Notes under the pieces: generated by a model
Seen by the model: the letters and a program-made list of their open reading frames with translations, nothing else
Told to the model about the DNA's origin: nothing
The model's database searches: none
Made by a program: the position numbers and the translations under genes
In this document: one piece after another, positions 1,988 to 32,853 of the stretch
Numbering within the stretch: the stretch's first letter is position 1
Layout of the letters: each line of letters begins with the position of its first letter
Source: Prevotella sp.
GTDB lineage: Bacteria; Bacteroidota; Bacteroidia; Bacteroidales; Bacteroidaceae
DNA: 40,875 bases
NCBI GenBank assembly: GCA_017475005.1
Contig: JAFVGI010000060.1
Span: 1-40,875 of the forward strand
Direction: 5' to 3'

Positions 1988-2155
1988 GACCCCACCCCGA
2001 CCCTCCCAAGGGGAGGGGGAATAGTTTAGAGTTTGGGGAGTAAGAGTCAGTGGTAAGTTTAGAGTATTAGGTTCCAAGTTATCGTTAACGTTATCGTTAT
2101 CGTTGAAAACCTTTCACATTTCACCTCTCACCTTTCACCTTTCACATTTCACCTC
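1988..2155. repeat. GC hairpin plus heptamer and hexamer tandem repeats between convergent genes
   Basis: A 7-bp hairpin (CCCTCCC 2001-2007 with GGGAGGG 2011-2017) may end transcripts from both sides. Then come GTTTAGA-like 7-mers (2026-2076, including AGTCAGTGGTAAG at 2045-2057, repeated exactly at 31609-31621). Next are ATCGTT hexamers (about 2089-2105) and six heptamers of the type CTTTCAC/ATTTCAC/CTCTCAC (about 2111-2153). The last set runs into the 3' end of the GH31 gene and encodes its final residues. Confidence 0.75.
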
Positions 2156-4639
2156 TACTCTCTTTCCTTTATAGGTGATTTCTTTTTCTGCTCCTCCTGC
2201 TACAGAAATCTTTATTTTCTGTATCTTTGAGGCTGCATATTTCCCTTCCCGGGCTCCGATGGTGAGGCCACTAGTGGCATTGTCCCAATGTAGGGCAATG
2301 CGGCTTTGCTGTCCCTTGGTATATTCTGTGCTGTAGCCATCATCTTCATATAGGGTGAAGTCGGCATCGGCACCTGGATAGATACGAATCTCTAACGGCT
2401 CCGTTGTCGTCTCGAGGGCATACTGACGAACAGGACCATAGGGGAGTATGCTGCCACCTTTTACGAAGACAGGAATAAAGCTGTTATCAACAGATGTCTT
2501 TACTACTTCGCCTCCGGCATAATGCTTTCCTGTGTGGAAGTCATACCATCCGGCAGCATTGACAGGCAGATATGTTGTCCATTCCGTGACGTCTGGTATT
2601 GTAACAGGGCTGATAAGGAGCGACTTGCCAAACATATATTCATATTTCTGCTCCAAGGCGCGGTTATCATTGCAGAAATCGAATACCAGCGGACGCATCA
2701 AGGTAGAACCCTCGAAAGATACTGCAGCAGCATTGCTGTATATATAAGGCATGAGGCGATAGCGTTCATTGAGATTTTTTGTGATGACAGCCTCTGCCTC
2801 CTCACCATAACGCCAAGGCTCGGTGTCAGACATATAACCATGTATTCGCATCAAAGGCAGATAGACACTTGTCTCTACCCAGCGCATCAGACGCTGTATA
2901 TAGGCTTGGTCTTTGTACTGATTGCCTGGACGGAAGAAACCACCTGCGTCGTATGTCCACCAAGGAAGTCCCGCTGCCTGCAGTCCCAGACCTGCCACAA
3001 TCTGTCTGCGGAATGTCTCCCAATCGTTGCCGATATCTCCACTCCATAGGGCAGAACCATAACGTTGTATGCCAGGGAAACCACAACGGGTGAGTATCAT
3101 AGGGCGCTTTTCGGGAAGTGACTGCAGCAGTCCTTCGCATACAGTCTTGTTGACAAGAAGAGGATATACATTACGCACCTGTTCTCCTGCCCATAATCCG
3201 TTGTTTACGCGACGTCCCAAGAGGTCGTCATTCTCTGGTTCCGTAGCATCCTGCCACCAAGCATCGATGCCCAGCGGAACAAGGCGCTCAGAGAAGTTCT
3301 TCCAATATGTTGTGGCAGCAGCAGGATTGAAGAAATCTATCCAGTCGGTACCAGGGATGTAGTAGTTGCTGCCCATCATCTGCTGACCTACCTCAGAGCC
3401 TTTGTCTATCTTTGACCATACGCTGAGCATCAGGCGCATATTCATCTTATGGAGGCTGTCTGTCAAAGCCTTCGGATCGGGATAGTATGCCTCATCGAAA
3501 CGCATAGCATTCCATCCGTATTTTCCCCAATACTGCCAATCTTGTACCAAGACATCAATAGGCATTTTCTTGCTGCGGAACTGGTTGCCTGTCTGTAATA
3601 TCTCGTCAGATGAATGGAAGCGTTCGCGACAGTGTATGTATCCCAGAGCCCATTGTGGCATGAGTGGTGCAGGACCTGTCAGTTGGCGGTAGGTCGCCAT
3701 CACCTCGTCAGGAGTGCCGACAAAAACGGTATAGTCAACAGCTGCTGCTATTGGAGAGCGGAAGACACTCTCGTCCTCTATCTTCTTGAAGAAAAGGGTA
3801 GGGCGGTCGCCTTTTGACAGTTCAGCTGAAACAGTATGACTGCCGGCAGAAAGGGTTACTATGGCCGATGCCGTTGGTGGCAGCCACAGGTTTTGCATCT
3901 CTATGACGGGAGCGCCATCGATGACGAGGTTATGGCGTCGGGCCATCTTCTGTCCCACATCGAGAAGAAGGGAATACTGTCCTCCTTCAGCGATGTTCAG
4001 GGTACCCTCAAAAATGTTTCTCTCGCGTACCTCTTTCTTACCACCTTCTGTTGAGGTGACATCAACGATATCTTTCTTGGAATCAGTGTTGCTGTTCGCC
4101 TGCAGTGCGATGCTGTTGTCTGCAGGATTGAAATCCACAAGGCCGTAGTTGTTCCACAGTATGCCATAGCCCTTGTTTGACAGCATCATAGGAACACTGA
4201 TCTGGGTGTTCACCTGTGTCAGGCGGCGAGCCAAACCACGGATGTTGCTGTAGCCGTCCTGGAATTGTCCCAAACCGAAGAGATACTCGTCTTTCGGAGA
4301 AGCAAAAGACAGCTGTGCCTGCGTGCCATTCATAGAATGTTTCGTGGCGGTGAAGACCGGTGTGCCGCTTTCATTCTTTATCGTCAGCAACTGTTGCTGG
4401 GTGTTGACATCAACATTCAAGGCACAGTTATCAACGGCTGTAGCACGACCCTCATAGAGCCAATCAGGAAGACCACCATCATTGAGTTCATTCTCGTAAT
4501 ACTGTATGCGGACAGCGTTATGAGCCACAGGGATAACCTTCAGAAATCCGTTACCAAAGTTCAGGGTCGCTTCTTTCTGCTGTGCATTGCCGATGAAGGC
4601 AGTGCAGAAAAAGAGAATAGTAAGAACAATATTTCTCAT
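2135..4639 (-). CDS. GH31 glycoside hydrolase, alpha-xylosidase-like
   Basis: 834 residues with a signal peptide (cleavage near residue 19). An N-terminal GH31 beta-sandwich (about 25-200) is interrupted by a PA14-like insert (about 205-290, with NIAEGGQYSLLLDVG). The (beta/alpha)8 barrel follows from about 325 and distal beta domains from about 640. The nucleophile is Asp464 in WWQDATEPE and the acid/base is Asp535 in WSGDIGNDW. A PA14-type insert and WWQDATEPE are typical of xyloglucan alpha-xylosidases such as CjXyl31A, so removal of xylose from xyloglucan oligosaccharides in the periplasm is the best guess; alpha-glucosidase is the alternative. It is not in a SusC/D locus here. Its last residues (EVKCER and stop) are encoded by an intergenic heptamer repeat. 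Confidence 0.88.
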   Translation of the reverse strand: MRNIVLTILFFCTAFIGNAQQKEATLNFGNGFLKVIPVAHNAVRIQYYENELNDGGLPDWLYEGRATAVDNCALNVDVNTQQQLLTIKNESGTPVFTATKHSMNGTQAQLSFASPKDEYLFGLGQFQDGYSNIRGLARRLTQVNTQISVPMMLSNKGYGILWNNYGLVDFNPADNSIALQANSNTDSKKDIVDVTSTEGGKKEVRERNIFEGTLNIAEGGQYSLLLDVGQKMARRHNLVIDGAPVIEMQNLWLPPTASAIVTLSAGSHTVSAELSKGDRPTLFFKKIEDESVFRSPIAAAVDYTVFVGTPDEVMATYRQLTGPAPLMPQWALGYIHCRERFHSSDEILQTGNQFRSKKMPIDVLVQDWQYWGKYGWNAMRFDEAYYPDPKALTDSLHKMNMRLMLSVWSKIDKGSEVGQQMMGSNYYIPGTDWIDFFNPAAATTYWKNFSERLVPLGIDAWWQDATEPENDDLLGRRVNNGLWAGEQVRNVYPLLVNKTVCEGLLQSLPEKRPMILTRCGFPGIQRYGSALWSGDIGNDWETFRRQIVAGLGLQAAGLPWWTYDAGGFFRPGNQYKDQAYIQRLMRWVETSVYLPLMRIHGYMSDTEPWRYGEEAEAVITKNLNERYRLMPYIYSNAAAVSFEGSTLMRPLVFDFCNDNRALEQKYEYMFGKSLLISPVTIPDVTEWTTYLPVNAAGWYDFHTGKHYAGGEVVKTSVDNSFIPVFVKGGSILPYGPVRQYALETTTEPLEIRIYPGADADFTLYEDDGYSTEYTKGQQSRIALHWDNATSGLTIGAREGKYAASKIQKIKISVAGGAEKEITYKGKRVEVKCER

Positions 4640-4682
4640 TTTTGTTTAAGGCTTATTTACTTTGTTTTATCTTTATTTTGTG

Positions 4683-4690
4683 CAAAGGTA
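4683..4690 (-). promoter_or_regulatory. -7 element (TACCTTTG) for the GH31 gene
   Basis: On the minus strand TACCTTTG lies 43 nt before the GH31 ATG, in AT-rich DNA. This fits TAnnTTTG. Confidence 0.6.
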
Positions 4691-4731
4691 AATAAAATAT
4701 TGCAAATAACCCTATGATAACGAAAAAAAAA

Positions 4732-7614
4732 CTATCTGTTGAGATTATCTGTATTGCCCCACTTCTTGTCGTAGCGTCCTTCTGTGTCGGTCTTGCCGCC
4801 AAAGATATTTAGGCGGTAGCGCACGTGAAGCATTGCGTATGAGTTGATACTGCTGAAACGTGTATCACTGCGTGAAGTTGCGTTGACCCAACGCTCGTAG
4901 TTGCTTTGTTTGCGGAGCAAATCGTAGAAGTTCAGCGCTACGACGAGTGTCTTATCCTTTAGGAAAGTCTTCGAAATCTGTCCGTTCCAAATCAGTTCGT
5001 TGGTGTTCGACGACGGGTCGTTGTATCCGCGTCGGCTGTTCTGGTGAAGATTGGTAGATATCTCAAAGTTGTGTGGCAGTCTCAACAATATCTGACCGCC
5101 GTAGCTGAAGCGCCAGATGTTGAGGTTTGCCGACGGCTGCAATTCATTTCGTGTGTGTTGGTAGTTGACAAATCCGTCGAGAGTCACTTCGAGCCAGTCG
5201 TTCCTGAAGCTGCCGTTAAGTCTTTCGTTAAGGTTTATGGTGCGCGTATGGTTCTTCTCTGGGTCGGAATGACCTTCTGTCACATAGCTTACGTAGTTAT
5301 TGTATCGCACGCGGGTGTCGGTGCCGATGTTCCAGTGGGCTGTGGAATCAAGGGCGGTGTTGAAGTTAAATCCACCGTTGGCATTCCAGTTGCCGTTGAT
5401 GTTCTCCGGACGTGTTATGCTACCGCCAGTGCCTTCGTCGTATGTCACCATGTTGGATATGGCGTTACGGATGTGGCGGTAGTTGGCATAGAGCACTATA
5501 GAACGCTTGTGCTTTACTGTGTAGTTGTTGAAATACACGTTGAGCGAGTTCGTGAACTGTGGCTTCAGACCCGGGTTACCTTGCGTGATGCGCAGAGGGT
5601 TTGAGTCGTCGGTGATGTCGAGCAGTTGGGTGATGTCGGGCTGCTGGGTGTCGCCACGATAGTGAACCCACAGGTTGCACTGATCGTTGAACTTATAGTG
5701 GAAGTCAACAGTTGGCGTCAGGTTGGTCACGACGCGAAGGGTATCAACATATATGCCGCGATAGTTCTGTATGAAGTCCGTGTGCTGCGGCTGTATGAGT
5801 ACACCCACGTTGTAGTCGTATTCATTCTGCGCATGTCGCAGGTTGAAGCGGATGTTGTGGGTATAAACCTTGTATTCCGAGTAGCGGCTCAAGTTCTTGT
5901 CAAAATATTTGTCCATGTCGTCATACACCGTATGCAGCCACGGATCCCATTCGCGGTATTGTGGTTCTATGCCTGAGAAAATATTCGTAGGCATGTGGCT
6001 GAAGTCATACGTCTTACGGTCGCTCTTGTTCTTACTGTAGCGCAGCTCGTAGCCGGTCTGCAGGTGGGCACCCTTCCACAGCGGTTCGCTGTAAGTGATG
6101 TTTCCGACATATCCGACATTGTCGCCCGGGGTAGTGTTGTAGCGTGCCGTGAAGTATGTGGAGTCCTGTCCGGCGTAGTTGACAATACGGAATAGATGTA
6201 CCTCGTTATTTGACGTGTTACGGTTCTTTGTGTCTCCGATGCTTCCCTCCACGCGCATAGTGATGTTGCGTCCGCGTTGGTTCAGGCGGCGGTAGAACTG
6301 TATCATCGTCCATGCATTTCTGTTCTCACCGTATGAGAGGTTGGCTCCCACATTGTGGTTCACGGCATATGGCAGCAGGGTAGTGTTGATGTCTGCCAGC
6401 GGGTCGAGGGAATATTGATATGGGTCTTGGTCGAAGGTGCCACTGGCCGACGTTACCTTGCTGTCGTTGGAACTAATGCTTCCGTTGGCACGCATCAGTA
6501 TGTTGGTCAGCGTATCGGGTTTCCATTCCAGTCGCATATTGCTGTACCATGTATTGCTGCGGGTCATGGTCTTTGTGCGGCTGTTGGAGAATGTGCGTGA
6601 GACGGCGCTGTAGAAGTTCTCTGTAGAGTTCTCCTCCAGGTTGTCGCCGTCGCGGTGGTTCCAGCGTATGCTCAGATCGATTTTCAATTTCTCATCGTCG
6701 TCATAGTTCAGGTTGGTGCCCAGCATCTTACGTGCATTTAATCCGCGACGGTTCCACCAGCTGGCGTTCTCTTCCTTGTTGTTGAAGTTGCCCAGAATCA
6801 CGAGGCGCGTCTTGTCGGTGAACATGCTTCCCATGCCCCTTGAGGCGTAGCGATTATGCGTACCGCCGGCGATGTCGAGGTTGGTCATGTAGCCTCGGTT
6901 CATGCCTTTCTTTATGGTGAAGTCGAGTACGGTCTCCTTGTTGCCGTCATCAATTCCCGTTATACGCGATTGATCGCTTTGCTGGTCGTAGAATTTCAGG
7001 TTCTGTATGATGTTGACAGGAATATTTTTCAGCGCCGTCTCTATGTCGCCGAGCATGAATTCCTTTCCGTCGAGGAGAATCTTCTTTACCACCTTTCCGT
7101 TCATGGTAATGTTACCGTCTTCATCGATGTCTGCTCCGGGTATGCGCTTAATGAGTTCCTCAATTGTCGATCCCTCCGGTGTGCGGTAGGCTTCGGGACT
7201 GTACATCAGCGTATCCTTGCGCACAACTACCTGTGCGGCACGTCCTGTGACGACGGCCTCTTGCAGCATCACCGATTCAGGCGCCATGAGCAGCGTGCCT
7301 AATTCTTGGTTCTGGTTGCGGCGGATAGTGACTTCGCGCTCTATGGATTGAAAACCTATTGACAGTATCTTCAGTTTGTATGTGCCGTTCGACGGTGCCT
7401 CGATGCTGAATGTTCCATTGTCGTTGGAAACAGTACCGCCTACGAAGGTGCTGTCGGAAATGGTGAAAAGCTGTATGGCTGCCTGCACCACAGGTTCCTT
7501 CAGTTCTACGTCAACCAATTGACCACTGATGGTTCTATAGCGTGTTCCGTCCTGTGCGGTGGCAAAAAGAGAAAAAAATGTGAAAATAAGCAGAGTAAAA
7601 AATCCTTGTTTCAT
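4732..7614 (-). CDS. TonB-dependent outer-membrane beta-barrel protein with carboxypeptidase-regulatory-like domain
   Basis: 960 residues with an N-terminal signal peptide (cleavage after FATAQ). Residues about 28-110 are a CarboxypepD_reg-like domain (YRTISGQLVDVELKEPV). Residues about 115-235 are a plug-like domain, and the rest is a long run of amphipathic strands with aromatic girdles, as in 22-strand barrels. It resembles the outer-membrane-protein beta-barrel family of Bacteroidetes rather than SusC: there is no SusD partner and the plug sequence differs from the SusC at 19325. Substrate is unknown. The gene is isolated, 92 nt after the GH31 promoter region and 104 nt from PL11. It may import iron complexes, peptides or glycans, or act in export. 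Confidence 0.8.
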   Translation of the reverse strand: MKQGFFTLLIFTFFSLFATAQDGTRYRTISGQLVDVELKEPVVQAAIQLFTISDSTFVGGTVSNDNGTFSIEAPSNGTYKLKILSIGFQSIEREVTIRRNQNQELGTLLMAPESVMLQEAVVTGRAAQVVVRKDTLMYSPEAYRTPEGSTIEELIKRIPGADIDEDGNITMNGKVVKKILLDGKEFMLGDIETALKNIPVNIIQNLKFYDQQSDQSRITGIDDGNKETVLDFTIKKGMNRGYMTNLDIAGGTHNRYASRGMGSMFTDKTRLVILGNFNNKEENASWWNRRGLNARKMLGTNLNYDDDEKLKIDLSIRWNHRDGDNLEENSTENFYSAVSRTFSNSRTKTMTRSNTWYSNMRLEWKPDTLTNILMRANGSISSNDSKVTSASGTFDQDPYQYSLDPLADINTTLLPYAVNHNVGANLSYGENRNAWTMIQFYRRLNQRGRNITMRVEGSIGDTKNRNTSNNEVHLFRIVNYAGQDSTYFTARYNTTPGDNVGYVGNITYSEPLWKGAHLQTGYELRYSKNKSDRKTYDFSHMPTNIFSGIEPQYREWDPWLHTVYDDMDKYFDKNLSRYSEYKVYTHNIRFNLRHAQNEYDYNVGVLIQPQHTDFIQNYRGIYVDTLRVVTNLTPTVDFHYKFNDQCNLWVHYRGDTQQPDITQLLDITDDSNPLRITQGNPGLKPQFTNSLNVYFNNYTVKHKRSIVLYANYRHIRNAISNMVTYDEGTGGSITRPENINGNWNANGGFNFNTALDSTAHWNIGTDTRVRYNNYVSYVTEGHSDPEKNHTRTINLNERLNGSFRNDWLEVTLDGFVNYQHTRNELQPSANLNIWRFSYGGQILLRLPHNFEISTNLHQNSRRGYNDPSSNTNELIWNGQISKTFLKDKTLVVALNFYDLLRKQSNYERWVNATSRSDTRFSSINSYAMLHVRYRLNIFGGKTDTEGRYDKKWGNTDNLNR

Positions 7615-7718: not shown

Positions 7719-9866
7719 TTATTTTATAAGAACTTTTTGCCCTTTATGAATGAAGATACCGCCATGTGGGTTTGATACCTTCTGACCCATCATGTTGTAG
7801 TAACTGTTGTCGTCAGAGGCCTTTCTGTCAGGAACAACTGTCACGATGTCGGTTATTGCATCTTTGTTCTGTACCTTCGCAGCCTCTTCCCATGCTATGG
7901 CATCGCTGGTGAGGTCGCTGCCGAGGTAGTACCCGAGGTTTGTAGGCTGGTTATAACCGATGTTTTGGTTCAGGGCACTCATCCAGTAGCAATGGTCTGT
8001 CATCAGCCAAGGGAATTTATGGGTGGTAGGATACCAAGTCGAGAAAATCTTTATGTCAGCCAGTTTTGTGCCGTCTGGGACTATCACCTCTTCGCGCCAG
8101 TCGCCTACGAGGTCACCAAACCATGAGGGGTTACCCTTTGTGCCGTTAATCATCGACATGCTATATCTCCACATCGTGAAGGTGCGTCCGTTTGGTACGC
8201 TGTGTATGATACCCTCTTCCGATAAGCCCTGTCTGCTCAACGTACCGTCAAACCATATAGCAGCAGCAAAGCCGGGCTTCCAGTCGCTTGCTGTACTGAT
8301 GCCTGTGGAGTTGCCATTCTGGTCGAAGAGGTCACTCTTATAATAGCAGAATTCGCACCCCTTCGTAGCAGGCGAATAGTCTGCTACCATACAGCGTCCC
8401 ATATCGTTGTCGCTTGCAGCATCCTTCTTCCATATCACACTGCCATCCGTCGCATCATGCAGGGCACACATTGTCTTTCCTGTCTCTAAGCAATGGAACA
8501 TCTGTAGACCCTCTCTGGCAGGAAGGAATTTTCCTACATAGTTGGCATCACCGTGTCCCAAGCCAGTGTTCCACAGTCCTATGCCATCTTCATCTACTGC
8601 CATAGAACCATACATCACCTCGTCAAAGCCGTCGCCGTCAAGGTCTGCTACATTCAGGGAGTGATTACCCTGTGCAGCGTATGTGCTATGCTTCTTGCCG
8701 TCTTTACCAGTCTTTCCGTCGTTGGTGTCGAAGCGCCATTTCTTTGTCAGTTTGCCATCTCGCCAGTCCCATACCTCGATGACGCTGTGGGCATAGACAC
8801 CTCTTCCCGTAACAACAGAGGGTAGGCCTGTCTCATCAAAACAACCTACACCGACTCTGAAGGAACAAGCCCTCTTCCAATAGTTGTCGCCCCATGATTC
8901 TGATGTTTCGCGATTTATGAATTTGTCACGCGCCAGTTCCTTTCCTGTTTTTCCGTCAATGATAGAGATAAACTCAGGTCCTGCACTATTATAGTGATCT
9001 ATCCATCCAGGGCTGCTGGTGTCAAGGTTTCCCCATGTACGATAGTCTATCTTTCCGTCTCCGTCTGTATCACCTATCTCTGTGCCATCGCCAAAGACAG
9101 TACCTTCACAAGTCCTTATCGCCATCTCGGCACAGCCATCGCCATCAAAATCTGCTATGGCGAAGCTGGAAGAATTTCCCAGAATAATGCCAGGCCCACC
9201 CTTTATGCGCCACAGGAAAGTACCATCCAGTTTATATGCATCCCATATCACAGCCCACAGACAATCCTTTTGTGAGTAGCTGGCACCGGAGCCGTCGCTG
9301 ATGATATTGCCGCTGTCGTCTTTTACGCTCTGCAGACGCTTTACGACGAGTTCAAACTGTCCGTCACCATCCAAGTCTCCAATGCTGACATCGTTGGCAG
9401 TATACACTATTTTGTCAGTATTCTTATAAACATCCTTTGTGTCCCGAAGTAGAATGCTGATATACGGCTGTCCTGCACTTACATATTCCTTCTTCAGGGT
9501 GAATGATGACAATGTCTCTGTCTGGCCATTATATGTCAGCCTGTAGTGATTGTCATTCGTCTTGCTGGCATTAGCATCCTGAATACATGTTTTGTTCTTT
9601 ACGTTGGTAGCGATTTTTGATTCAATACTGCTCGTTCCAATGCGACGATAAACATCAAAGCCTGTATTCTCGTCGTCCCCAGGCAGCATTCTCCAACTGA
9701 CGAGTACTGTTCCCGTATATTGCTGGTAGTCGCCAAGAGAAGCATTCTTGGCACCATTGATGCTGGCCCACAGGGCACGCTCCTGAGAGCTGTTAGTCTG
9801 TGCCCCTGCTGTCAGACAGGAAGCAACTAAAGCGATAGCGAATAATAGTTTGTTAACAGAAGTCAT
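7719..9866 (-). CDS. PL11 rhamnogalacturonan lyase, secreted
   Basis: 715 residues with a signal peptide (cleavage after LTAGAQ). An FnIII-like N-terminal region (about 45-130) precedes the PL11 eight-bladed propeller. That fold is marked by calcium-binding repeats: IGDLDGDGQFELVVKR, FAIADFDGDGCAEMAIRTCEG, VADLDGDGFDEVMYG and GDLVGDWREEVIVPDG. These match the YesW/YesX family, which cleaves the rhamnose-galacturonic acid backbone of rhamnogalacturonan I by beta-elimination. The C-terminus adds about 45 residues ending in a tail (YNMMGQKVSNPHGGIF...) of a kind seen on many Prevotella secreted proteins; the protein at 13819 has a similar end. The gene has its own promoter and is separated from the fructan operon by a terminator. 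Confidence 0.9.
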   Translation of the reverse strand: MTSVNKLLFAIALVASCLTAGAQTNSSQERALWASINGAKNASLGDYQQYTGTVLVSWRMLPGDDENTGFDVYRRIGTSSIESKIATNVKNKTCIQDANASKTNDNHYRLTYNGQTETLSSFTLKKEYVSAGQPYISILLRDTKDVYKNTDKIVYTANDVSIGDLDGDGQFELVVKRLQSVKDDSGNIISDGSGASYSQKDCLWAVIWDAYKLDGTFLWRIKGGPGIILGNSSSFAIADFDGDGCAEMAIRTCEGTVFGDGTEIGDTDGDGKIDYRTWGNLDTSSPGWIDHYNSAGPEFISIIDGKTGKELARDKFINRETSESWGDNYWKRACSFRVGVGCFDETGLPSVVTGRGVYAHSVIEVWDWRDGKLTKKWRFDTNDGKTGKDGKKHSTYAAQGNHSLNVADLDGDGFDEVMYGSMAVDEDGIGLWNTGLGHGDANYVGKFLPAREGLQMFHCLETGKTMCALHDATDGSVIWKKDAASDNDMGRCMVADYSPATKGCEFCYYKSDLFDQNGNSTGISTASDWKPGFAAAIWFDGTLSRQGLSEEGIIHSVPNGRTFTMWRYSMSMINGTKGNPSWFGDLVGDWREEVIVPDGTKLADIKIFSTWYPTTHKFPWLMTDHCYWMSALNQNIGYNQPTNLGYYLGSDLTSDAIAWEEAAKVQNKDAITDIVTVVPDRKASDDNSYYNMMGQKVSNPHGGIFIHKGQKVLIK

Positions 9867-9897: not shown

Positions 9898-9971
9898 CGA
9901 AATAAAATTGAAAATGAAAGAATGAAAAAATGAAAAAATGAAAAAAAAGTTCGTACGAAAGACGAATGACG

Positions 9972-10010
9972 AAAAAAAAAAGAGATGTAGTCTGTTGACC
10001 ACACCTCTTT
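9972..10010 (-). terminator. Strong terminator of the fructan operon
   Basis: On the minus strand a 14-bp stem (arms 9997-10010 and 9979-9992, two G-T wobbles, 4-nt loop) runs directly into a long T tract (A run at 9972-9980 on plus). It lies 20 nt after the fructokinase stop and closes the eight-gene operon. Confidence 0.85.
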
Positions 10011-12091: not shown

Positions 12092-12107
12092 ATTCGTATT
12101 TTTCTTA

Positions 12108-12148
12108 ATTCTTAACTCTTAACTCTTAATTCTTAATTCTTAACTTCA
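12108..12148. repeat. Heptamer tandem repeat at the GH32/MFS junction
   Basis: About five to six 7-nt units alternate between TTCTTAA and CTCTTAA. The repeat fills the 41-nt gap between the GH32 stop and the MFS start and extends into GH32, whose last codons (VKN and stop) are repeat sequence. It is the only such repeat inside the fructan operon. Confidence 0.8.
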
Positions 12149-22677: not shown

Positions 22678-24243
22678 TTAATCGTTTGTTATACCATTTC
22701 CTCCCCTTACATCTCCAGGTAATATACCATATTCGTCTTTAAAGCATTTTGTGAAATAGCTGGGTGCTGTAAATCCTACCTTGTATGCCACTTCGCTGAT
22801 GCTCATATCGGTGGTCATCAGCATCTGATATCCCCGTTTTAATCGGGCTGTTCGCAACAATTCCACAGGTGATGCTCCTGTGATGGCTTTCACCTTTCTG
22901 TAAAGTTGCACACGGCTAAGATTCATCTCTGATGCCAATTCCTCTACACCCAGTTCGCTCTCCTCCAGTTTCGCCTCCACGACATCTTTGAATCGTGTGA
23001 AGAAAATAGATGTTGCGGCGTTTCCCTTATCGGTTTGTGCTTCCAAGATGGTGTCATCGCCGGAAGCAGGGCTGTCCAATGTTGGGAGTTCTTCTTTCTT
23101 CAGCTCCCACAGACTGTTCACCATACGCTCCCTTCGAAGGGTTACTTTACCTAATCTATACAAGTATAATAGCACTATGACAGCAATCAGCAATATGAGT
23201 CCTCCGAAAGCCATCCATGTAATCATACGTTGCGTATCCAGCTCTTTCAGATAGGAGTCTGCCATCTGATGCAGCCTGTCGAGATTCTCTTCCTGTCGCA
23301 TCGTCTCTTCTGTCTGCATCAGTAAAACACCGGCATTGTCGTGGGTCACAATAGCGGACATCATGAGGGTCTCTTTCTCGTAGGGCTTACCTTCAAGGAT
23401 GTCTATGGCCAACTGTAGCAGGCGGTCACCATTGGTGGGGTAAATAAATGAGGCATCTAAAACGGAGTCGTTCACCAGTTTTATACCGCCATTCTTTCCT
23501 GGCAATCCGTCAATGCCGCAGTATAAGGGCCTGCTGTCGCCTGCTTCCAAGAATGCCTTGCGTGCACCGATAGCAGAACGGTCGTTCATGCCAAAGACCA
23601 TATCGACAGCAACGTTGGGGTTCGCTTTCTTCCATTTCCTCACGATGTCATATCCCGTCTCCTCCGTCCAGTCACCCTGTAGAGTTGCTGCAATCTCCAT
23701 CCTCGAATAATTCTTCATGGCATCAACAAAACCCTTATGACGCTCTATTGCAGGGGAAGAACCTTTGAGTCCCATCACCTCAAGTACCTTTCCGTTGCCA
23801 TTCAGACGCTTGGCGATGTATTCACCCATCTGGCGACCCATCTCGTAATTGTCGGCACTCATAAATGCCGTGAACTTCTGGCTGTTGGTCTTCCTTTCAA
23901 AAACGATGACGGGAATACCGCTGTCGTAGGCGCGGTCTATGGCGGGGGAGATGGTAGCGACCTGATTGGGGGCAACGATAAGCAAGTCGATGCCACAGGC
24001 CACGAGACTGTCAATCTGCTCTATCTGCCGCTGGTCGCTGTCATAGGCAGCAGCAAAGCGCAACTCAACATTGTTATGGAAAAAATTCCCCATGCGCAGT
24101 TCTGCATTCTGCTTCTCGCGCCAGATGTCATCCGAACATTGTGAAACACCGATGACATAGTGCTTCTCCTTATTGGTACAGCTGATGCATATACATGCTA
24201 ATGCTGTGAGGGTAACCAGTAATAGCGTTTTAATATTGTTCAT
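22678..24243 (-). CDS. Transmembrane sensor-regulator: periplasmic sugar-binding domain fused to AraC domain
   Basis: 521 residues from ATG 24243 (a TTG two codons upstream is the alternative). An N-terminal signal anchor (lipobox-like CISC near residue 22) precedes a type-I periplasmic binding domain of the RbsB/fructose-sensor class (about 28-310: YVIGVSQCSDDIWREKQNAE, LLIVAPNQ, GIPVIVFERK, GLKGSSPAIERHKGF). One membrane segment follows (about 340-364) and then an AraC/HTH_18 domain (about 415-510: NLSRVQLYRKVKAITGASP, ISEVAYKVGFTAPSYFTKCFK). Hybrid two-component regulators such as BT1754 carry the same sensor and output but also histidine kinase, ATPase and receiver domains; none is present here. 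It probably senses fructose and activates the adjacent SusC operon. It is 9 nt after the patatin gene. Confidence 0.88.
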   Translation of the reverse strand: MNNIKTLLLVTLTALACICISCTNKEKHYVIGVSQCSDDIWREKQNAELRMGNFFHNNVELRFAAAYDSDQRQIEQIDSLVACGIDLLIVAPNQVATISPAIDRAYDSGIPVIVFERKTNSQKFTAFMSADNYEMGRQMGEYIAKRLNGNGKVLEVMGLKGSSPAIERHKGFVDAMKNYSRMEIAATLQGDWTEETGYDIVRKWKKANPNVAVDMVFGMNDRSAIGARKAFLEAGDSRPLYCGIDGLPGKNGGIKLVNDSVLDASFIYPTNGDRLLQLAIDILEGKPYEKETLMMSAIVTHDNAGVLLMQTEETMRQEENLDRLHQMADSYLKELDTQRMITWMAFGGLILLIAVIVLLYLYRLGKVTLRRERMVNSLWELKKEELPTLDSPASGDDTILEAQTDKGNAATSIFFTRFKDVVEAKLEESELGVEELASEMNLSRVQLYRKVKAITGASPVELLRTARLKRGYQMLMTTDMSISEVAYKVGFTAPSYFTKCFKDEYGILPGDVRGGNGITND

Positions 24244-24270
24244 TCTCAATTATCAATGTTCAATGTTCTT
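24244..24270. repeat. Heptamer repeat between patatin and regulator genes
   Basis: Units TCTCAAT, TATCAAT and GTTCAAT occur in a 7-nt register. The repeat covers the intergenic gap and encodes the last residues of the patatin (KNIEH and stop). Confidence 0.75.
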
Positions 24271-25143
24271 CAGCGCTTCGCGCATCTTTTCCCGTCCGTA
24301 GTCGGAGATTTTATCTACATGGTCATATTCAAATGGTCCGAAAAGGTCCATAGGGATATTCACCAGGATATCTGGCTTGTAGAGTTCTATATTGAGGGCG
24401 GCATTCTTCTGTATCATCATGCGGATTAGTCGCTGGCTCATGGTGAAATAGTTCACCTCTGGTTCGTCAGGCAACAACGATGACAAGAAGTCCAAAGCAG
24501 TTTGGGCCTTCGTTTTCGTTTTGGCCTTCGTTTTCGTTTTGGTTTTCGTTTTCGTTATCGTTTTCGTTATCGTTTTGGTATTCGTTTTCGTCTCATATGC
24601 CGTTCCACTCACGTTTACTGCCACCACGATGTCGCCAGGCATGTCCTTGCTGATGTTGAGGGGTAGGGGATTGAGAATTCCTCCGTCCACGAATGTTGTT
24701 CCACCTCGTTTTACAGGGTCGAAGAATAGCGGCATTGATATCGAGGCGCGTATGGCTTCGTAGAGGCTTCCCTTGCTGAATACCACTTCCTGACCTTTCT
24801 CCCAATCGGTGGCAATAGCCTTGAAGGGTATGGGCAGATTTTCTATCTTCACATCGGGCACTATCTCCTTCATGGCCTCGATGATCTTCTCGCCCTTTAC
24901 CAGATGGTCGAGAGAGAAGGTGATATCGAGGAGCGACAGAATCTTCTTTTTGTCGATGGTCTGCATCCATTCCTTATATTCCGCCAGCTTTCCTGCAGCA
25001 TACATACCTCCGATAATAGCACCCATAGAACATCCTACGATGCTCCTGATGCGATAACCCTGTGCCTCAAGTTCTTCTATGGCCCCAATATGAGCCAGTC
25101 CACGGGCTCCACCGCTGGATAGTACTAATGCAACGTCTCTCAC
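24253..25143 (-). CDS. Patatin-like phospholipase with repeat-encoded KT-rich insert
   Basis: About 296 residues from GTG 25143, which begins six residues before VLSSGGARGLAHIG, as usual for the RssA/YchK type. A TTG at 25185 would add 14 residues made entirely of an intergenic repeat. Catalytic features are intact: the oxyanion-hole block SGGARG, the nucleophile serine in GCSMG and the dyad aspartate in DGGILNPLP. It would hydrolyse lipid acyl esters in the cytoplasm or at the inner membrane. An insert of alternating Thr-Lys/Ile-Lys/Ala-Lys dipeptides (encoded by 24509-24591) follows VNVSGTAYE, where relatives have a short loop. The C-terminus is also repeat-encoded. It is probably co-transcribed with the regulator. 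Confidence 0.85.
   Translation of the reverse strand: MRDVALVLSSGGARGLAHIGAIEELEAQGYRIRSIVGCSMGAIIGGMYAAGKLAEYKEWMQTIDKKKILSLLDITFSLDHLVKGEKIIEAMKEIVPDVKIENLPIPFKAIATDWEKGQEVVFSKGSLYEAIRASISMPLFFDPVKRGGTTFVDGGILNPLPLNISKDMPGDIVVAVNVSGTAYETKTNTKTITKTITKTKTKTKTKAKTKTKAQTALDFLSSLLPDEPEVNYFTMSQRLIRMMIQKNAALNIELYKPDILVNIPMDLFGPFEYDHVDKISDYGREKMREALKNIEH
24509..24591. repeat. Hexamer repeat inside the patatin coding sequence
   Basis: Fourteen hexamers of the type TTCGTT, with variants TTGGCC, TTGGTT and ATCGTT, lie in frame and give KT/KA/IT dipeptides. The same hexamer family occurs between genes at about 2089-2105, 25230-25262 and 31711-31745. Confidence 0.85.
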
Positions 25144-25146: not shown

Positions 25147-25205
25147 AGTTTCTGGTTTCAAGTTTCTGGTTTCAAGAATGGTCAATGTTCAATGGTCAAT
25201 GTTTT
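25147..25205. repeat. Two abutting heptamer repeat families before the patatin gene
   Basis: GTTTCTG/GTTTCAA units (25149-25175) are followed by GTCAATG/TTCAATG units (about 25181-25201), both with a 7-nt period. They occupy the patatin leader. A related family (CTTGAAA/CCTGAAA) lies at 32829-32852. Confidence 0.8.
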
Positions 25206-25293: not shown

Positions 25294-25310
25294 CAGCCAA
25301 AAATAAATTA

Positions 25311-25340
25311 ACGGTTAAAGGTTAACGGTTAAAGGTTAAA
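25311..25340. repeat. GGTTAAA-type heptamer repeat in the GH2 leader
   Basis: About four units of GGTTAAA/GGTTAAC lie in a 7-nt register between the GH2 promoter and its ATG. The same family follows the GH2 stop at 27211. Confidence 0.8.
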
Positions 25341-25345
25341 GAATA

Positions 25346-25396
25346 ATTTTCAATGTTCAAAACACATTTCACATTTCACATTTCACTTCTCACATT
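25346..25396 (+). repeat. Heptamer repeat forming the GH2 start and signal-peptide n-region
   Basis: CAATGTTCAA supplies the start codon. Three ACATTTC units and two degenerate ones (ACTTCTC, ACATTAC) then encode residues about 4-14 (THFTFHISLLT) of the signal peptide. Confidence 0.8.
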
Positions 25397-27209
25397 ACTG
25401 TTAAGTCTTCTGACACTGAGTGTTAGCGCCCAGGAGGTGCCACAGTTGGGTAATATAATGAGTCATGAAACAATGCTGCTGAATGGTAAGTGGCATTATA
25501 TCGTTGATGTACAGGAGGAGGGGTATTATGACTACCGCATGAATCCTACAAGATGGGGATTTTTCCTTAATGCGAAGCCACAACGCCCAGAGGACCTTAT
25601 AGAGTATGACTTCGACAAAGCTCCCACGATGCAGATTCCCGGTGACTGGAATACGCAGGACGAAAAGCTGTTCTTCTACGAGGGAACAGTATGGTTTAAG
25701 ACCAGTTTTCAGGCACAGGTGCCTATCGAAGGCTGTCGCACACTGCTCTATTTCGGTGCTGTGAATTATGACTGCCACGTCTATGTAAACGGCAAGGAGG
25801 CAGGACACCATATCGGTGGCTTCACACCTTTCAACTATGATGTGACGGACCTGCTGCGTAGTGGTGAGAATGTCGTCATTGTGAAGGTTGACAACAAGCG
25901 CAAGGCTGAGAATGTGCCAACACTGATATTCGACTGGTGGAACTATGGTGGCATTACCCGCGATGTGATGTTGGTAAAGGTGCCAAATACATACATCGAG
26001 AACTATAAGGTGCAGTTGGAGAAGGCTGATGCAAAGGCTCGTCAGCATGAGATAACGATGACGGCACACCTCAGCAAACCTTTGGCAGGACAAAAGGTGA
26101 CATTGTGCATCCCAGAACTGAAGGTTGAGAAACAATGTGTTACAGATAACGATGGTAATGCCCGTCTCGTTGTCAGTGTGCCATCAAAACGCCTCACACT
26201 ATGGTGCCCTGAAACACCAAGGCGCTATCGTGTAGATCTGTCATTGGACGGAAAAGCTGCAGACGGCTCTGTGGTAAGCGACTTTGTAAGTGACAGTATC
26301 GGATTCCGCACCATCGAGACAAAAGGAAAGCAGATACTGCTGAATGGCAAACCAATCTTCCTGCGTGGCATCAGCATCCACGAAGAAAAACCAAATGGCG
26401 GTGGTAGGGCTAACTCCACAGAAGATGCTCATACTCTGCTGTCATGGGCAAAGGAACTGGGATGTAACTTTGTGCGTCTGGCTCACTATCCTCATAACGA
26501 ATATGCTGTTCGTGAGGCAGAGAGAATGGGCATTCTGGTGTGGTCGGAGATACCTGTCTATTGGACTATAGCATGGAAGAATCCTGATACCTATAAAAAT
26601 GCACAGCGACAGCTGACAGACATGATAGCACGTGACCAGAACCGTGCCAATGTCATAATATGGTCTATCGCTAACGAGACACCTCATTCTCCAGAGCGTG
26701 ATCAGTTCCTGAGCAACTTGTCACAGTATGCACGCAGCCTCGATGATACCCGCCTGATATCTATGGCGATGGAGGTTACGTCGGCTTCTAACTTTAAGAA
26801 CCGCTTGCAGGATAATATGAACAAATATGTCGATGTGGTATCCTTCAATCAGTATGTTGGCTGGTATCGTGATGTCAATGATGCCCCCAAGATGGTGTGG
26901 GAGATTCCTTATGACAAACCAGTTATCATCAGCGAATTTGGTGGTGGTGCAAAAGCCGGTTATCATGGTGCCAAGAACCAGCGCTGGACAGAGGAATTCC
27001 AAGAGAATCTCTATCGTGAGAATCTGAATATGATAGACAAGATAGAAGGCCTTGCAGGCACCTCTCCATGGATACTGAAGGACTTCCGCTCTCCACGTCG
27101 TGTGCTCAATGGCATACAGGACTACTATAACCGAAAGGGCCTCGTCTCTGATGGTGGTGAGAAGAAACTGGCCTTCAAAGTACTGCAAGAGTGGTACAAA
27201 AATAAATAG
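25353..27209 (+). CDS. GH2 beta-glucuronidase-like enzyme, secreted
   Basis: 618 residues with a signal peptide ending SVSAQ. Domain order is the GH2 sugar-binding jelly roll (about 40-210), an Ig-like domain (about 215-320) and a TIM barrel (about 325-610). The acid/base is Glu442 in IIWSIANETP and the nucleophile is Glu528 in PVIISEFGGG. Near the C-terminus the tripeptide NRK (593-595, in YYNRKGLVS) matches the N-x-K motif by which beta-glucuronidases bind the glucuronate carboxylate. It is shorter than LacZ-type galactosidases and close to GUS in length. It likely removes terminal glucuronic acid from plant glycans in the periplasm; a galacturonidase role is the alternative. The n-region of the signal peptide is repeat-encoded. 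Confidence 0.85.
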   Translation: MFKTHFTFHISLLTLLLSLLTLSVSAQEVPQLGNIMSHETMLLNGKWHYIVDVQEEGYYDYRMNPTRWGFFLNAKPQRPEDLIEYDFDKAPTMQIPGDWNTQDEKLFFYEGTVWFKTSFQAQVPIEGCRTLLYFGAVNYDCHVYVNGKEAGHHIGGFTPFNYDVTDLLRSGENVVIVKVDNKRKAENVPTLIFDWWNYGGITRDVMLVKVPNTYIENYKVQLEKADAKARQHEITMTAHLSKPLAGQKVTLCIPELKVEKQCVTDNDGNARLVVSVPSKRLTLWCPETPRRYRVDLSLDGKAADGSVVSDFVSDSIGFRTIETKGKQILLNGKPIFLRGISIHEEKPNGGGRANSTEDAHTLLSWAKELGCNFVRLAHYPHNEYAVREAERMGILVWSEIPVYWTIAWKNPDTYKNAQRQLTDMIARDQNRANVIIWSIANETPHSPERDQFLSNLSQYARSLDDTRLISMAMEVTSASNFKNRLQDNMNKYVDVVSFNQYVGWYRDVNDAPKMVWEIPYDKPVIISEFGGGAKAGYHGAKNQRWTEEFQENLYRENLNMIDKIEGLAGTSPWILKDFRSPRRVLNGIQDYYNRKGLVSDGGEKKLAFKVLQEWYKNK

Positions 27210-27210
27210 G

Positions 27211-27252
27211 GTAACGGTTAAAGGTTAACGTTTATCGGTTATAGTTTATAGT
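27211..27252. repeat. Heptamer repeat between GH2 and the LolA-like gene
   Basis: GTTAAAG/GTTAACG units pass into GTTATAG/TTTATAG units in the same 7-nt register. They start directly after the GH2 stop and fill the whole 44-nt gap. Confidence 0.8.
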
Positions 27253-27253
27253 A

Positions 27254-27292
27254 ATGTTCAATATTCAATATTCAATTCTCAATATTTTATTT
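27254..27292 (+). repeat. AATATTC heptamer repeat inside the LolA-like signal peptide
   Basis: The ATG and the next four units (TTC, AATATTC, AATATTC, AATTCTC, AATATTT) are in a strict 7-nt register and encode residues 1-12. Confidence 0.75.
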
Positions 27293-28557: not shown

Positions 28558-28574
28558 GTTTGAATAATTATTCG

Positions 28575-29005: not shown

Positions 29006-29007
29006 AA

Positions 29008-29037
29008 AACTGCCGTACTTTTTCAAGTGCGGCAGTT
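29008..29037. terminator. Bidirectional terminator
   Basis: Arms 29008-29020 and 29025-29037 form a 13-bp stem with one G-T wobble and a TTTC loop. It follows the plus-strand gene at once, and on the minus strand it is followed by a T-run (A run 29004-29009) that would end the aquaporin transcript. Confidence 0.8.
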
Positions 29038-29065
29038 GATGTTGTTATGTAAGTGAAATGTGTCT

Positions 29066-29737: not shown

Positions 29738-29795
29738 TTCGTTTTTAAATTTAGTGATACAAAATAGAAATTAAGTATATTTGGTAAACTAACGT

Positions 29796-30473: not shown

Positions 30474-30475
30474 AA

Positions 30476-30552
30476 AGAGTTAAGAATGAAGAGTTAAGAA
30501 TTAAGAAATATTCAATAACCAATAACCTATAACCAATAACCTATAACCGTTA
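30476..30552. repeat. Heptamer repeats between TerC and B3/B4 genes
   Basis: Four GAGTTAA/GAATTAA-type units are followed by AATAACC/TATAACC units (about 30514-30545), each in a 7-nt register. They fill the gap and touch the TerC stop codon. Confidence 0.8.
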
Positions 30553-31572
30553 CCCTTTCTTCTTCACTGCAAGTGAGAATAGTATGGACAGTGTGAGCAG
30601 TCCGAAGATGACGGAGAGGCTGAGAGGTGTGGAAATCTCGATGTGAGGCATGGTGTAATGGATGCCAGCGAGGTGGAGGAGGGCATTGATGTATTCATCC
30701 ATTGCGAGCAACATCTTTATGCCCACAAAGATGAGGATGAGGCCGAGGCCGTATTTCAGGAGCTTGAAATATCTTGCTACTGCTGCGAGGGCGAAGTACA
30801 TGGCACGCAGGCCCAGAATAGCAAAGATATTACTTGTGAGCACGATGAAGGGGTCACGACTCACCGAGAATACTGCCGGTATGCTGTCAACGGCAAAGGC
30901 TACATCAGTTGTCTCGATGACAATGAGAGCGACGAAGAGGGGAGTGGCCTTTTTAGTTAAGAGTGAAGAGTGAAGAGTTAAGAGTTTGGTTTCTGGTATT
31001 TCCTCTCTTATGAAGAATTTGTCGCCGTGCATTTTGTCGGTGACGGGGAAGAACTTTTTAAACCATTTGACGAAGATATTCTTTGAGGGGTCGGTGAGTT
31101 GTTCTTCATCGTGTCCGAACATCTTTCCTCCGGAATAGATAAGGAAGAGTCCGAAGAGTCCCAATATCCATTCAAACTGTTCTACCATAGCAGCACCGGC
31201 GAAGATGAAAATACTCCTGAGTACGAGGGCTCCGAAGATGCCCCAGAAGAGTACTTCGTGCTGGTATTTTCTTTCGATACCAAAGAAGGTGAAAAGCATC
31301 AGGAAGACGAAGAGATTATCCATTGACAGCGACTTCTCTATCAGGTATCCTGCCAGAAACTCCATCGCCTTTTCGTGGGATGCTATGGGGTAGAAGAAAT
31401 AGATGCCAACGCAGAAGAGAAGGGAGACAGCTATCCATACTGCCGTCATGTGCAGCGCTTCCTTCACATTGACTTCATGCTGACCTTTTTTGCCAAACAT
31501 CTTTAAGTCGATGATTAGCATTATCAACACCAGTACGTAAAATATTATCCAAGCCCAAAGAGGCAATGTCAT
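30550..31572 (-). CDS. TerC-family integral membrane protein with repeat-encoded loop insert
   Basis: 340 residues with about eight to nine membrane segments. TerC hallmarks are present: SMDNLFVFLMLFTFFGI (about 78-94), KYQHEVLFWGIFGAL and VIETTDVAFAVDSIPA (about 222-237). TerC proteins are metal-ion exporters or helpers of secreted metalloenzymes; tellurite resistance is not implied alone. Between IPE and ATPLFVALIVIETTD is an insert of about 13 residues (TKLLTLHSSLLTKK) encoded by a CTCTTAA/CTCTTCA heptamer repeat of intergenic type. Relatives have a short link here, in a cytoplasmic loop before the conserved helix. Divergent from yicC. Confidence 0.88.
   Translation of the reverse strand: MTLPLWAWIIFYVLVLIMLIIDLKMFGKKGQHEVNVKEALHMTAVWIAVSLLFCVGIYFFYPIASHEKAMEFLAGYLIEKSLSMDNLFVFLMLFTFFGIERKYQHEVLFWGIFGALVLRSIFIFAGAAMVEQFEWILGLFGLFLIYSGGKMFGHDEEQLTDPSKNIFVKWFKKFFPVTDKMHGDKFFIREEIPETKLLTLHSSLLTKKATPLFVALIVIETTDVAFAVDSIPAVFSVSRDPFIVLTSNIFAILGLRAMYFALAAVARYFKLLKYGLGLILIFVGIKMLLAMDEYINALLHLAGIHYTMPHIEISTPLSLSVIFGLLTLSILFSLAVKKKG
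30957..30986 (-). repeat. Heptamer repeat inside the TerC coding sequence
   Basis: On the minus strand four units alternate CTCTTAA and CTCTTCA in a 7-nt register and keep the TerC frame. The same family sits between genes at 12108-12148 and 30476-30504. Confidence 0.85.
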
Positions 31573-31576
31573 TAGT

Positions 31577-31685
31577 TGAGAGTTTATAGTTTAAAGTTTA
31601 TAGTTTATAGTCAGTGGTAAGAGTAAAGTTGAAAGAATTAAGGTCGCTAACCCCTAACCTCTAACCGCTAACCTGTTTTCAGGTT
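31577..31685. repeat. Three heptamer families in the TerC leader
   Basis: GTTTATA/GTTTAAA units (31582-31609) come first, then AGTCAGTGGTAAG (31609-31621, also at 2045-2057). CTAACCC-type units (about 31646-31671) follow, then a 6-bp hairpin AACCTG/CAGGTT (31670-31675, 31680-31685). Confidence 0.75.
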
Positions 31686-31686
31686 G

Positions 31687-31765
31687 CGAAGGTACGAATT
31701 TTTCTCTAAAAACAAAAACGAAAAATAAAAAAGTTTTGGTTTTCGTTATATTTTTAGTACCTTTG
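31687..31765. promoter_or_regulatory. Divergent promoters of terC (-) and upstream promoter of yicC (+)
   Basis: Minus: TACCTTCG (31687-31694), the same octamer as before patatin. Plus: TTTG (31735-31738), a 19-nt spacer, then TACCTTTG (31758-31765). The plus element lies in a 12-bp hairpin (31756-31767 with 31772-31783, TTTC loop, one wobble). Confidence 0.55.
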
Positions 31766-31823
31766 ACTTTCGTCGAAGGTACTCTGTCATGATAATTCAA
31801 AAAAATAAAAATTTTCTTATTTT

Positions 31824-31855
31824 TTTGCATTATTCATAACTTAATCGTACCTTTG
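31824..31855 (+). promoter_or_regulatory. Promoter of yicC
   Basis: TTTG (31824-31827), a 20-nt spacer and TACCTTTG (31848-31855) make a textbook Bacteroidetes promoter, 27 nt before the ATG. Confidence 0.75.
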
Positions 31856-31881
31856 CAGTCAAAATCAAATGGTAAATACAT

Positions 31882-32784
31882 ATGATATTATCTATGACGG
31901 GCTTTGGTAAAGCCGTAGCAAAATACCAGAACAAGACGATACATGTAGAGATAAAGTCATTGAATTCAAAGGCTTTGGACTGCTCAATGCGCATAGCTCC
32001 TATCTATAGAGAAAAAGAAGTGGAGATACGCAAGGCAATACAGGACAGTGCTGTCAGGGGTAAGATGGATGTGTCTCTGTGGGTAGAAAAGGATGTTGCT
32101 GCTGATGTGGCACATATTGACACAGCACTGGCGAAGACATATTATGAACAAATAAAGACAATGTCAGAAGAGCTGGACATAGAACAGTCGAATGTCCTGT
32201 CTGTCATCATGCGGATGCCGGATGTGTTAGCAAAAACAGAGACGGAAGAATTGTCAGAGGAGGAGTGGAATGTTGTTTCTGAAGCTATTGCTAATACCCT
32301 GAAGGCGCTTGAGGAATTCCGTAAGCAGGAGGGTGCAGCATTATGTAAGAAGTTTGAGGAAAAACTGAATAATATCTCTGCCCTCATGGCATCGATAGAG
32401 CCATATGAACAGGGTAGGGTGGAGAAGATACGCCAGCGTTTGATAGAGAGGCTGCAGAGTATTCCGGAGGTGGAATATGATCGTAACCGCCTGGAGCAGG
32501 AGATGATTTTTTATGTAGAGAAACTCGATATCTCAGAAGAAAAACAACGTCTTACCAATCACATAAAGTATTTCCGTGATACCATGAACGAACCTTGGCA
32601 GCCAGCCTCTGAAGGCGGCAAGAGTCAGGGAGTGGGCAAGAAACTTGGTTTCATAGCACAGGAGATGGGCCGAGAGATAAACACCACTGGCTCAAAGAGC
32701 AATCAGGCTGAAATGCAGAATATCGTGGTGCAGATGAAGGACGAACTGGAGCAGATAAAAGAGCAAGTGCTGAATGTGCTGTAA
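31882..32784 (+). CDS. yicC: YicC/YloC family endoribonuclease-type protein
   Basis: 300 residues. The N-terminus ILSMTGFGKA and the C-terminal block GKKLGFIAQEMGREINTTGSKSN...MKDELEQIKEQVLNVL are the YicC family signatures, and the length is typical. The central part is helical. E. coli YicC acts in RNA turnover as an endoribonuclease. In many bacteria gmk (guanylate kinase) follows yicC; here it does not: a repeat and a bidirectional terminator follow at once. Confidence 0.95.
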   Translation: MILSMTGFGKAVAKYQNKTIHVEIKSLNSKALDCSMRIAPIYREKEVEIRKAIQDSAVRGKMDVSLWVEKDVAADVAHIDTALAKTYYEQIKTMSEELDIEQSNVLSVIMRMPDVLAKTETEELSEEEWNVVSEAIANTLKALEEFRKQEGAALCKKFEEKLNNISALMASIEPYEQGRVEKIRQRLIERLQSIPEVEYDRNRLEQEMIFYVEKLDISEEKQRLTNHIKYFRDTMNEPWQPASEGGKSQGVGKKLGFIAQEMGREINTTGSKSNQAEMQNIVVQMKDELEQIKEQVLNVL

Positions 32785-32787
32785 ACG

Positions 32788-32853
32788 TGAAATGTGAAAG
32801 GTGAAATGTGATGGATGAAGGGTGAAAGACTTGAAACCTGAAACTTGAAACTA
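32788..32853. repeat. Heptamer repeats after yicC
   Basis: GTGAAAT/GTGAAAG units (32788-32827, the complement of the family at 2111-2153) are followed by CTTGAAA/CCTGAAA units (32830-32852). They begin 3 nt after the yicC stop. Confidence 0.8.

Follow-up and report, generated by a model that had tools for sequence, protein, structure and literature searches.

The window analyzed here is the whole 40,875-nucleotide (nt) stretch of contig C53 of G000, a Prevotella assembly of 2.36 Mb in 72 contigs that is 81% complete (G denotes a genome and L a locus or stretch). Its proteins are consistent with Bacteroidales and include a TonB-dependent receptor, GH31, GH32 and GH2 enzymes, a rhamnogalacturonan lyase, a pectate lyase and a dockerin protein. 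The YicC protein shares 97-98% identity with its counterpart in the Prevotella or Prevotellaceae metagenome-assembled genomes (MAGs) L042-L044, and the source genome is a rumen-type Prevotella. Around these genes stand tandem arrays of 7-nt units, which are the subject of this report. A sequence-only reading of the window had listed such heptamers at a series of gene gaps, and Tandem Repeats Finder returned a row of period 7 or 14 at each of them (Table 1). Genes were called by longest-open reading frame (ORF) rules without a gene finder, and the MAGs are possibly incomplete or mixed. Array counts refer to 968 kb of G000, or to 2.17 Mb of G000, G040 and G041 together; these three genomes make up the sister-species comparison, in which orthologous gaps were anchored by flanking genes of about 90% identity. 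L043 comes from G041, L048 from G045, and L008 is contig C7 of G000.

Table 1. Repeats of the window (heptamer rows by Tandem Repeats Finder) and their counterparts elsewhere
Position	Repeat	Setting	Counterpart
2109..2154	ACCTTTC/ACATTTC	Overruns stop codon of minus-strand GH31 gene (2135-4639)	G040: other heptamer mix, only ACCTCTC in common
9955-9974	Heptamer row, period 7 or 14	Beyond the places listed by the sequence-only reading, like the rows at 25363, 27253 and 30955	
12102..12143	TTCTTAA/CTCTTAA	Gap separating two minus-strand genes	Length difference to G040 exactly 14 nt
24242..24268	ATTCTCA/ATTATCA/ATGTTCA	Junction of two minus-strand genes; Tandem Repeats Finder row 24253-24268	G040 longer by exactly 14 nt
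25147..25203	GTTTCTG/GTTTCAA, then GTCAATG/TTCAATG	Spans called start of patatin-like gene	No unit in common with G040 gap
25308..25341	GGTTAAC/GGTTAAA	Upstream of GH2 gene	
25363..25396	CACATTT	Just within called GH2 ORF	
27206..27252	GGTTAAA to GTTTATA	Flush with GH2 stop	No unit in common with G040 gap
27253..27286	AATGTTC/AATATTC		
30475..30548	Composite, AAGAGTT to AATAACC	Fills B3/4-TerC intergenic gap	Families largely different among window, L042 and L043; no unit common to G040, AACCTAT alone common to G041
30955..30986	Heptamer array	Within TerC coding sequence, variable loop	L043 (G041) longer by 7 residues, an in-frame 21-nt difference
31573..31611	AGTTTAT/AGTTTAA	Flush with TerC start codon	35-nt length difference between G040 and G041
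31647..31674	CTAACCC/CTAACCT		Absent from orthologous L042 and L043 gaps
32783..32852	GTGAAAT, then CTTGAAA	Directly after YicC stop codon	GTGAAAT units also in L042, one heptamer apart; G040 one heptamer more; L044 has GGTTAAM units at the corresponding place, beside a conserved hairpin
1990-2014	GC-rich dispersed palindrome CCCCACCCCGACCCTCCCAAGGGGA		8 contexts in the sequence examined (at most 2 mismatches), several adjoining heptamer arrays
24509-24591	TTCGTT hexamer tract, 13.8 copies	Within patatin-like ORF	
40542-40602	22-nt unit, 2.8 copies		22-nt intergenic period also in several Prevotella (L051, L101, L128)

In the window, the period-7 signal shows in the gaps, where identity at lag 7 is 0.40 compared with 0.31-0.34 at lags 5, 6, 8 and 9; its coding sequence has no peak at lag 7. 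Autocorrelation at lag 7, a check that the sequence-only reading had proposed, revealed a genome-wide excess: identity at this lag reaches 0.314 in 41 stretches of G000 (691 kb), and ten dinucleotide shuffles gave 0.274 ± 0.001. Of exact runs, the same 691 kb hold 62 with period 7, 45 with period 14, 23 with period 21 and at most 11 with any other period up to 30, and one shuffle of them held no exact period-7 run. When arrays with units of 4-13 nt were called, 134 of the 180 intergenic arrays in the G000 sample had period 7, followed by periods 11 (13 arrays) and 8 (11 arrays), with at most 6 at any other; 28 further period-7 arrays lie inside ORF calls, some of which are doubtful. Exact three-copy repeats follow the same pattern, with 44 at unit 7 compared with 15 at unit 4, 12 at unit 6 and 3 at unit 8. 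Perfect copies (three or more) occur in 44 arrays of the G000 sample and in one of the window, and the majority of the listed arrays are imperfect. The same caller found no array in 100 kb of E. coli K-12, in shuffled versions of 515 G000 gaps or in the shuffled gaps of 80 Prevotella loci. The three sister genomes carry 298 period-7 arrays in 2.17 Mb; outside the clade they are rarer, as 68 other Prevotella loci (1.28 Mb) yield 32 and ten loci from other families of the order (38 kb) hold one. Once arrays with a score of at least 9 were masked, the lag-7 excess dropped to what lags 6, 8 and 9 show. Therefore, the signal is made of discrete arrays, and a hidden heptamer register outside them was rejected.

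Two parts of the sequence-only reading did not survive these counts. The period is not strictly 7 nt, given the arrays of periods 8 and 11 and the enrichment of octamers in other Prevotella. Nor did adjoining families keep a common register: across 102 pairs, the mean unit mismatch was 5.29 at the register-keeping offset against 4.85 at the others, in a test biased against register because arrays that run on in register are merged into one call. The reading had also taken the families to be unrelated, but the vocabulary is common within the clade and thus not all families are unrelated: the cosine between unit-class vocabularies is 0.72-0.77 within the trio of G000, G040 and G041 and 0.19-0.42 when these are compared with other Prevotella, for which the samples are smaller or pooled.

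The ratio of period-7 to period-8 intergenic arrays is 134/11 in G000, 84/5 in G040, 80/1 in G041, 11/1 in G044 and 8/2 in G046. It is 6/12 in G045, 4/10 in G047 and 4/11 in G050 (pooled Fisher p = 6e-23), although these three were sampled at 74 to 97 kb each and each was noticed through one locus. Without the noticing loci, the ratios become 0/9, 2/2 and 4/4, or 6/15 together compared with 298/17 for G000, G040 and G041 (p = 5e-13). It is therefore safe to call G045, G047 and G050 octamer-enriched; "8-dominated" would not be safe, except for one G045 contig. The octamers resemble the heptamers in kind, with many words and several arrays flush with gene ends. In a tree of YicC, the three octamer-enriched genomes fall at three separate places, two of them (L052 and L048) within the 13-species group of the window; the period labels on this tree were taken from single loci, and L048 itself carries the label "seven". 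Both 7- and 8-nt arrays are found within one genome, and also on the L048 contig, so unit length acts like a trait of the families that reside there.

These results bear directly on local replication slippage with an enzyme-set ruler, in which a polymerase would slip by about 7 nt and permissive sequence would turn heptameric, with no copying between loci. The sharp peak at 7 and the mostly whole-unit changes described below speak for such a ruler. Moreover, heptamers are the commonest such repeats across prokaryotes according to the part of PMC4679880 available to us, and mismatch repair is poor on loops of more than 3 nt according to that of PMC4060949. However, a fixed ruler is at odds with three octamer-enriched congeners and with both unit lengths in one genome, and it leaves the clade-specific vocabulary and the composite blocks common to different gaps unexplained. 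Loss of mismatch repair, too, was rejected as a requirement: MutS1 scored above the cut-off in 7 of 10 genomes, including octamer-enriched G045, and the lack of an over-threshold match in G000, G047 and G050 could be explained by incomplete assemblies. We regard the slippage ruler as rather unlikely.

The arrays are not placed at random with respect to genes. Among gaps of 20-600 nt in G000, G040 and G041, arrays occur in 174 of 617 co-directional gaps (28%) and 40 of 119 convergent gaps (34%) compared with 14 of 136 divergent gaps (10%). Considering only arrays with more than 30 nt of free room, the distance to the stop codon is at most 10 nt in 55 of 143 co-directional cases (0.11 for random placement) and in 31 of 100 convergent ones (0.09); to the start codon it is at most 10 nt in 37 of 143 co-directional cases (0.11) and in 8 of 34 divergent ones (0.06). 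The flushness with stop and start codons noticed in the window is thus real at both gene ends in the three sister genomes, and divergent gaps are avoided. As the arrays overrun gene ends and can create doubtful start codons, they matter for annotation; given the CACATTT array inside the called GH2 frame, the true GH2 start may lie downstream of the called one. An Rfam scan of the window gave no family at gathering scores.

Such placement could reflect a selected role at the RNA level, with stop-rich arrays at gene ends acting as three-frame translation stops, cistron spacers or repeated sites for an RNA-binding protein. The arrays are indeed concentrated in gaps that hold a gene 3′ end, and the same gaps stay array-bearing although their words change. 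Additionally, 99.1% of 457 arrays contain a stop codon on at least one strand, against 94.8% for column-permuted units, and in 86.9%, against 72.8%, each of the three frames of one strand is stopped. The excess exists, but it is mostly base composition: a cruder comparison with background heptamers made it look larger, it is modest over column-permuted units and it is lacking for arrays inside ORF calls, so that strong stop-codon selection was rejected. The RNA-level role is further weakened by the change of words, and in some species of period, by the 443 of 617 co-directional gaps that carry no array, by the weak purine bias of the sense strand (0.55) and by the array inside the TerC loop. 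We consider this role improbable.

Comparison of orthologous gene ends between the sister species, also suggested by the sequence-only reading, showed both unit-number change and word replacement at gaps that persist in carrying arrays. Between G000 and G040, 17 gaps have arrays in both genomes, 9 in G040 only, 1 in G000 only and 96 in neither (Fisher p = 2e-13), where the lopsided one-sided counts may stem from gaps having been defined on the G000 side. The corresponding counts for G000 and G041 are 12 in both, 9 and 2 one-sided and 76 in neither (p = 2e-8), and for G040 and G041 they are 3 in both, 1 and 1 one-sided and 27 in neither. In the 32 comparisons with arrays on both sides, some of which concern a gap that enters through two species pairs, 17 have no common unit and 15 have one or more, whose orientation is the same in every case; when unrelated gaps are paired at random, about 17% of the pairs have a unit in common, with either orientation about equally frequent. 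We conclude that arrays are kept through descent, and that at sites which stay array-bearing they are also exchanged for others. Clean insertions or deletions (indels) with matched flanks that were flagged as array measure 7, 7, 14, 14, 18, 21 and 28 nt, six of seven being multiples of 7; with four unflagged ones that are array-like by eye (7, 7, 8 and 15 nt), the total becomes 8 of 11.

Gaps of unrelated genes also share array sequence. Ordered 24-mers of mixed, non-perfect units connect 41 locus pairs within a genome, whereas 20 unit-order shuffles gave 13.5 on average and 25 at most; without the two richest stretches, L008 and L185, the figures are 21 pairs, a shuffled mean of 7.0 and a maximum of 13. 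Pairs of array-rich gaps with a common segment of 40 nt or more, at an identity of 88% or above, number 94 in G000 (436 gaps), 25 in G040 (296 gaps) and 107 in G041 (184 gaps), in both orientations. The shared part comprises array plus other sequence in 40, 17 and 10 of these pairs, respectively; sharing that is purely repetitive could be convergent in origin. L008 contains very large composite heptamer arrays with higher-order repeats (1-500, 2900-3262, 5454-5796 and 7728-7937), and its composite units ACTCTAA, ACTATAC, ACTTTCC and CCGTTAA recur in several gaps of unrelated genes and in L185.

Dispersed hairpin modules accompany the arrays. A 29-nt hairpin-bearing pattern occurs in 2, 8, 8 and 5 copies in G000, G040, G041 and G042 and in none of five other genomes, and a second hairpin pattern has 11 copies in G000 and none in eight other genomes. 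As a side observation, at the L039 gap at 9714, G040 carries a clean insertion of 261 nt, which encloses a CTCGGC/GCCGAG hairpin and resembles a dispersed element of the miniature inverted-repeat transposable element (MITE) type; a similar sequence lies in the G000 gap at L039 8739-9054. The 29-nt pattern is part of a 35-nt module, and the heptamers on either side of this module match best in phase in 12 of 13 distinct contexts. Mobile mini-elements might then set the period, their transposases leaving target duplications of 7 bp (elsewhere 8 bp) that seed arrays; this would account for 7 versus 8, and it suits the species-specific dispersal of the modules. Nevertheless, in the single filled/empty pair, G000 carries exactly 35 nt that are absent in G041, without target duplication, and because both flanking units exist in the empty site no duplication is needed, although the pair sits inside an array, where such a signal is masked. 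Moreover, the spacers of the second module are not in phase, no terminal inverted repeats were seen by eye, and no Y1 transposase (PF01797) was found in G000 (81% complete) or G041, a search that did not extend to other transposases; G040 has two matches, one of them above the cut-off. For want of a PF01797 match in G000 and G041, repetitive extragenic palindromic (REP) elements moved by REP-associated tyrosine (RAYT/Y1) transposases were rejected as well. Overall, we give the mini-element explanation little credence.

Taken together, the data lead us to favor, by a modest degree of confidence, a reading of the arrays as a genome-wide, fast-turnover, satellite-like library that changes by whole units, is copied between gaps and is confined by selection to dispensable sequence. 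In the putative mechanism, whole units would be gained and lost by slippage or unequal exchange, as the observed length changes suggest. Array-bearing segments would be copied between unrelated gaps in both orientations, to judge from the common composite blocks, perhaps through template switching or ectopic conversion where gaps have short words in common. Selection, to which the placement points, would purge arrays from promoters and from coding sequence, except for tolerated in-frame change, and the remaining arrays would accumulate in gaps within operons and between convergent genes, reaching as far as the stop or start codon. Unit length and vocabulary would be properties of the resident library, which would explain why the vocabulary is clade-wide while words change locus by locus, and why related genomes can be octamer-rich. 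The satellite-like reading requires no function for the arrays. The sequence-only reading had proposed a mechanism that makes or preserves 7-nt units rather than one spreading element. The genome-wide process, mostly 7-nt with many words, upholds the first idea in general form, and the arrays are indeed not a single spreading element; a fixed 7-nt mechanism conflicts with the octamer-enriched congeners and the coexistence of 7- and 8-nt arrays, and the notion that nothing spreads conflicts with the segments that recur in unrelated gaps.

Several observations weigh against a satellite-like library. Regarding copying, ordered 16-nt words show no excess (16 pairs against a shuffled mean of 23.3), and ordered 22-nt words without L008 and L185 link 18 pairs, within the shuffled range (maximum 19). 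Same-family arrays parted by other spacers are not, as a rule, in phase (3 of 22), and for a 112-nt array block that G040 has but G041 and G000 lack, the matches scored, among them 40 of 145 candidates in G040, included no close donor, the best being 85% over 66 nt. Regarding whole-unit change, the 8- and 15-nt array-like indels do not fit, and in loose alignments multiples of 7 make up 15 of 71 indels of at least 5 nt inside arrays compared with 31 of 179 outside; we judged these lengths uninformative and used the clean indels with matched flanks instead. The three-frame stop excess is explained by a purely neutral process only via seeding at stop codons. Furthermore, all comparisons are between species, and no array change was caught in the act.

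A bolder extension, which we put forward as a speculation that is doubtful at present, is that a whole bacterial genome inherits, as traits set in trans, the unit length and the vocabulary of its intergenic tandem DNA. From one congener to another the unit length could then move from 7 towards 8 nt, with individual gaps keeping arrays but swapping words. If true, this would amount to satellite-type concerted evolution in a bacterium, possibly via an enzyme with a switchable step.

Heptamer repeats are known from other bacteria, among them the cyanobacterial STRR named by the sequence-only reading. In most genomes, no other class of long simple repeats is as abundant as the heptanucleotides, for which polymerase slippage was suggested (Mrazek 2007, as quoted in the available parts of PMC4679880 and PMC4692102); beyond this suggestion, the literature covered, itself available in part, offers no explanation of their dominance in prokaryotes. 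In titles, abstract openings and three papers of the open-access literature, we recognized no description of Prevotella heptamer arrays, of gaps that stay array-bearing while their word is exchanged, or of a change from 7 to 8. The sequence-only reading had known of no counterpart in this group; this holds in so far as we found no account of the Prevotella arrays, but TAACTGA repeats, with other heptamer repeats in some of the same gaps, are published for five Bacteroidetes (MacGregor 2015, PMC4679880, available part). As there described, the TAACTGA repeats of Beggiatoaceae, cyanobacteria and these Bacteroidetes resemble ours in being heptamer arrays in gaps, often near start codons, patchy among relatives and in some Bacteroidetes accompanied by other heptamers. 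In contrast, that study follows one fixed word, whereas the Prevotella arrays use many, and tandem pairs of TAACTGA (two exact copies) occur at no locus in the G000, G040 and G041 samples. Xanthomonas and Nostoc carry GGGAATC and GGGGA(C/T)T heptamers (Rehm 2015, available part of PMC4692102), which are G-rich, quadruplex-forming families unlike the Prevotella arrays; tandem pairs of GGGGATT, GGGGACT and GGGAATC, the last being the variant tested of the wider GGGNATC unit, are likewise absent from the three samples. Of five published words tested, GTGATTA alone was found in tandem, at one G000 locus.

The arrays also resemble the long simple sequence repeats with 5-11-nt units (PMC4060949, available part), with which they share the excess of tandem 7-nt units, the peak at 7 and the mostly intergenic location. 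Compared with heptanucleotide repeats of that class, however, the Prevotella arrays are mostly imperfect, use many words that change between sister species and have octamer-enriched congeners. The question of why heptamers dominate is testable in close Prevotella species that differ in period and vocabulary and retain syntenic gaps, for which a ruler, copying between loci and selection make different predictions. The heptamer excess in prokaryotes is thus already published, and the Prevotella arrays extend it with the exchange of words at persistent gaps and with octamer-enriched congeners.

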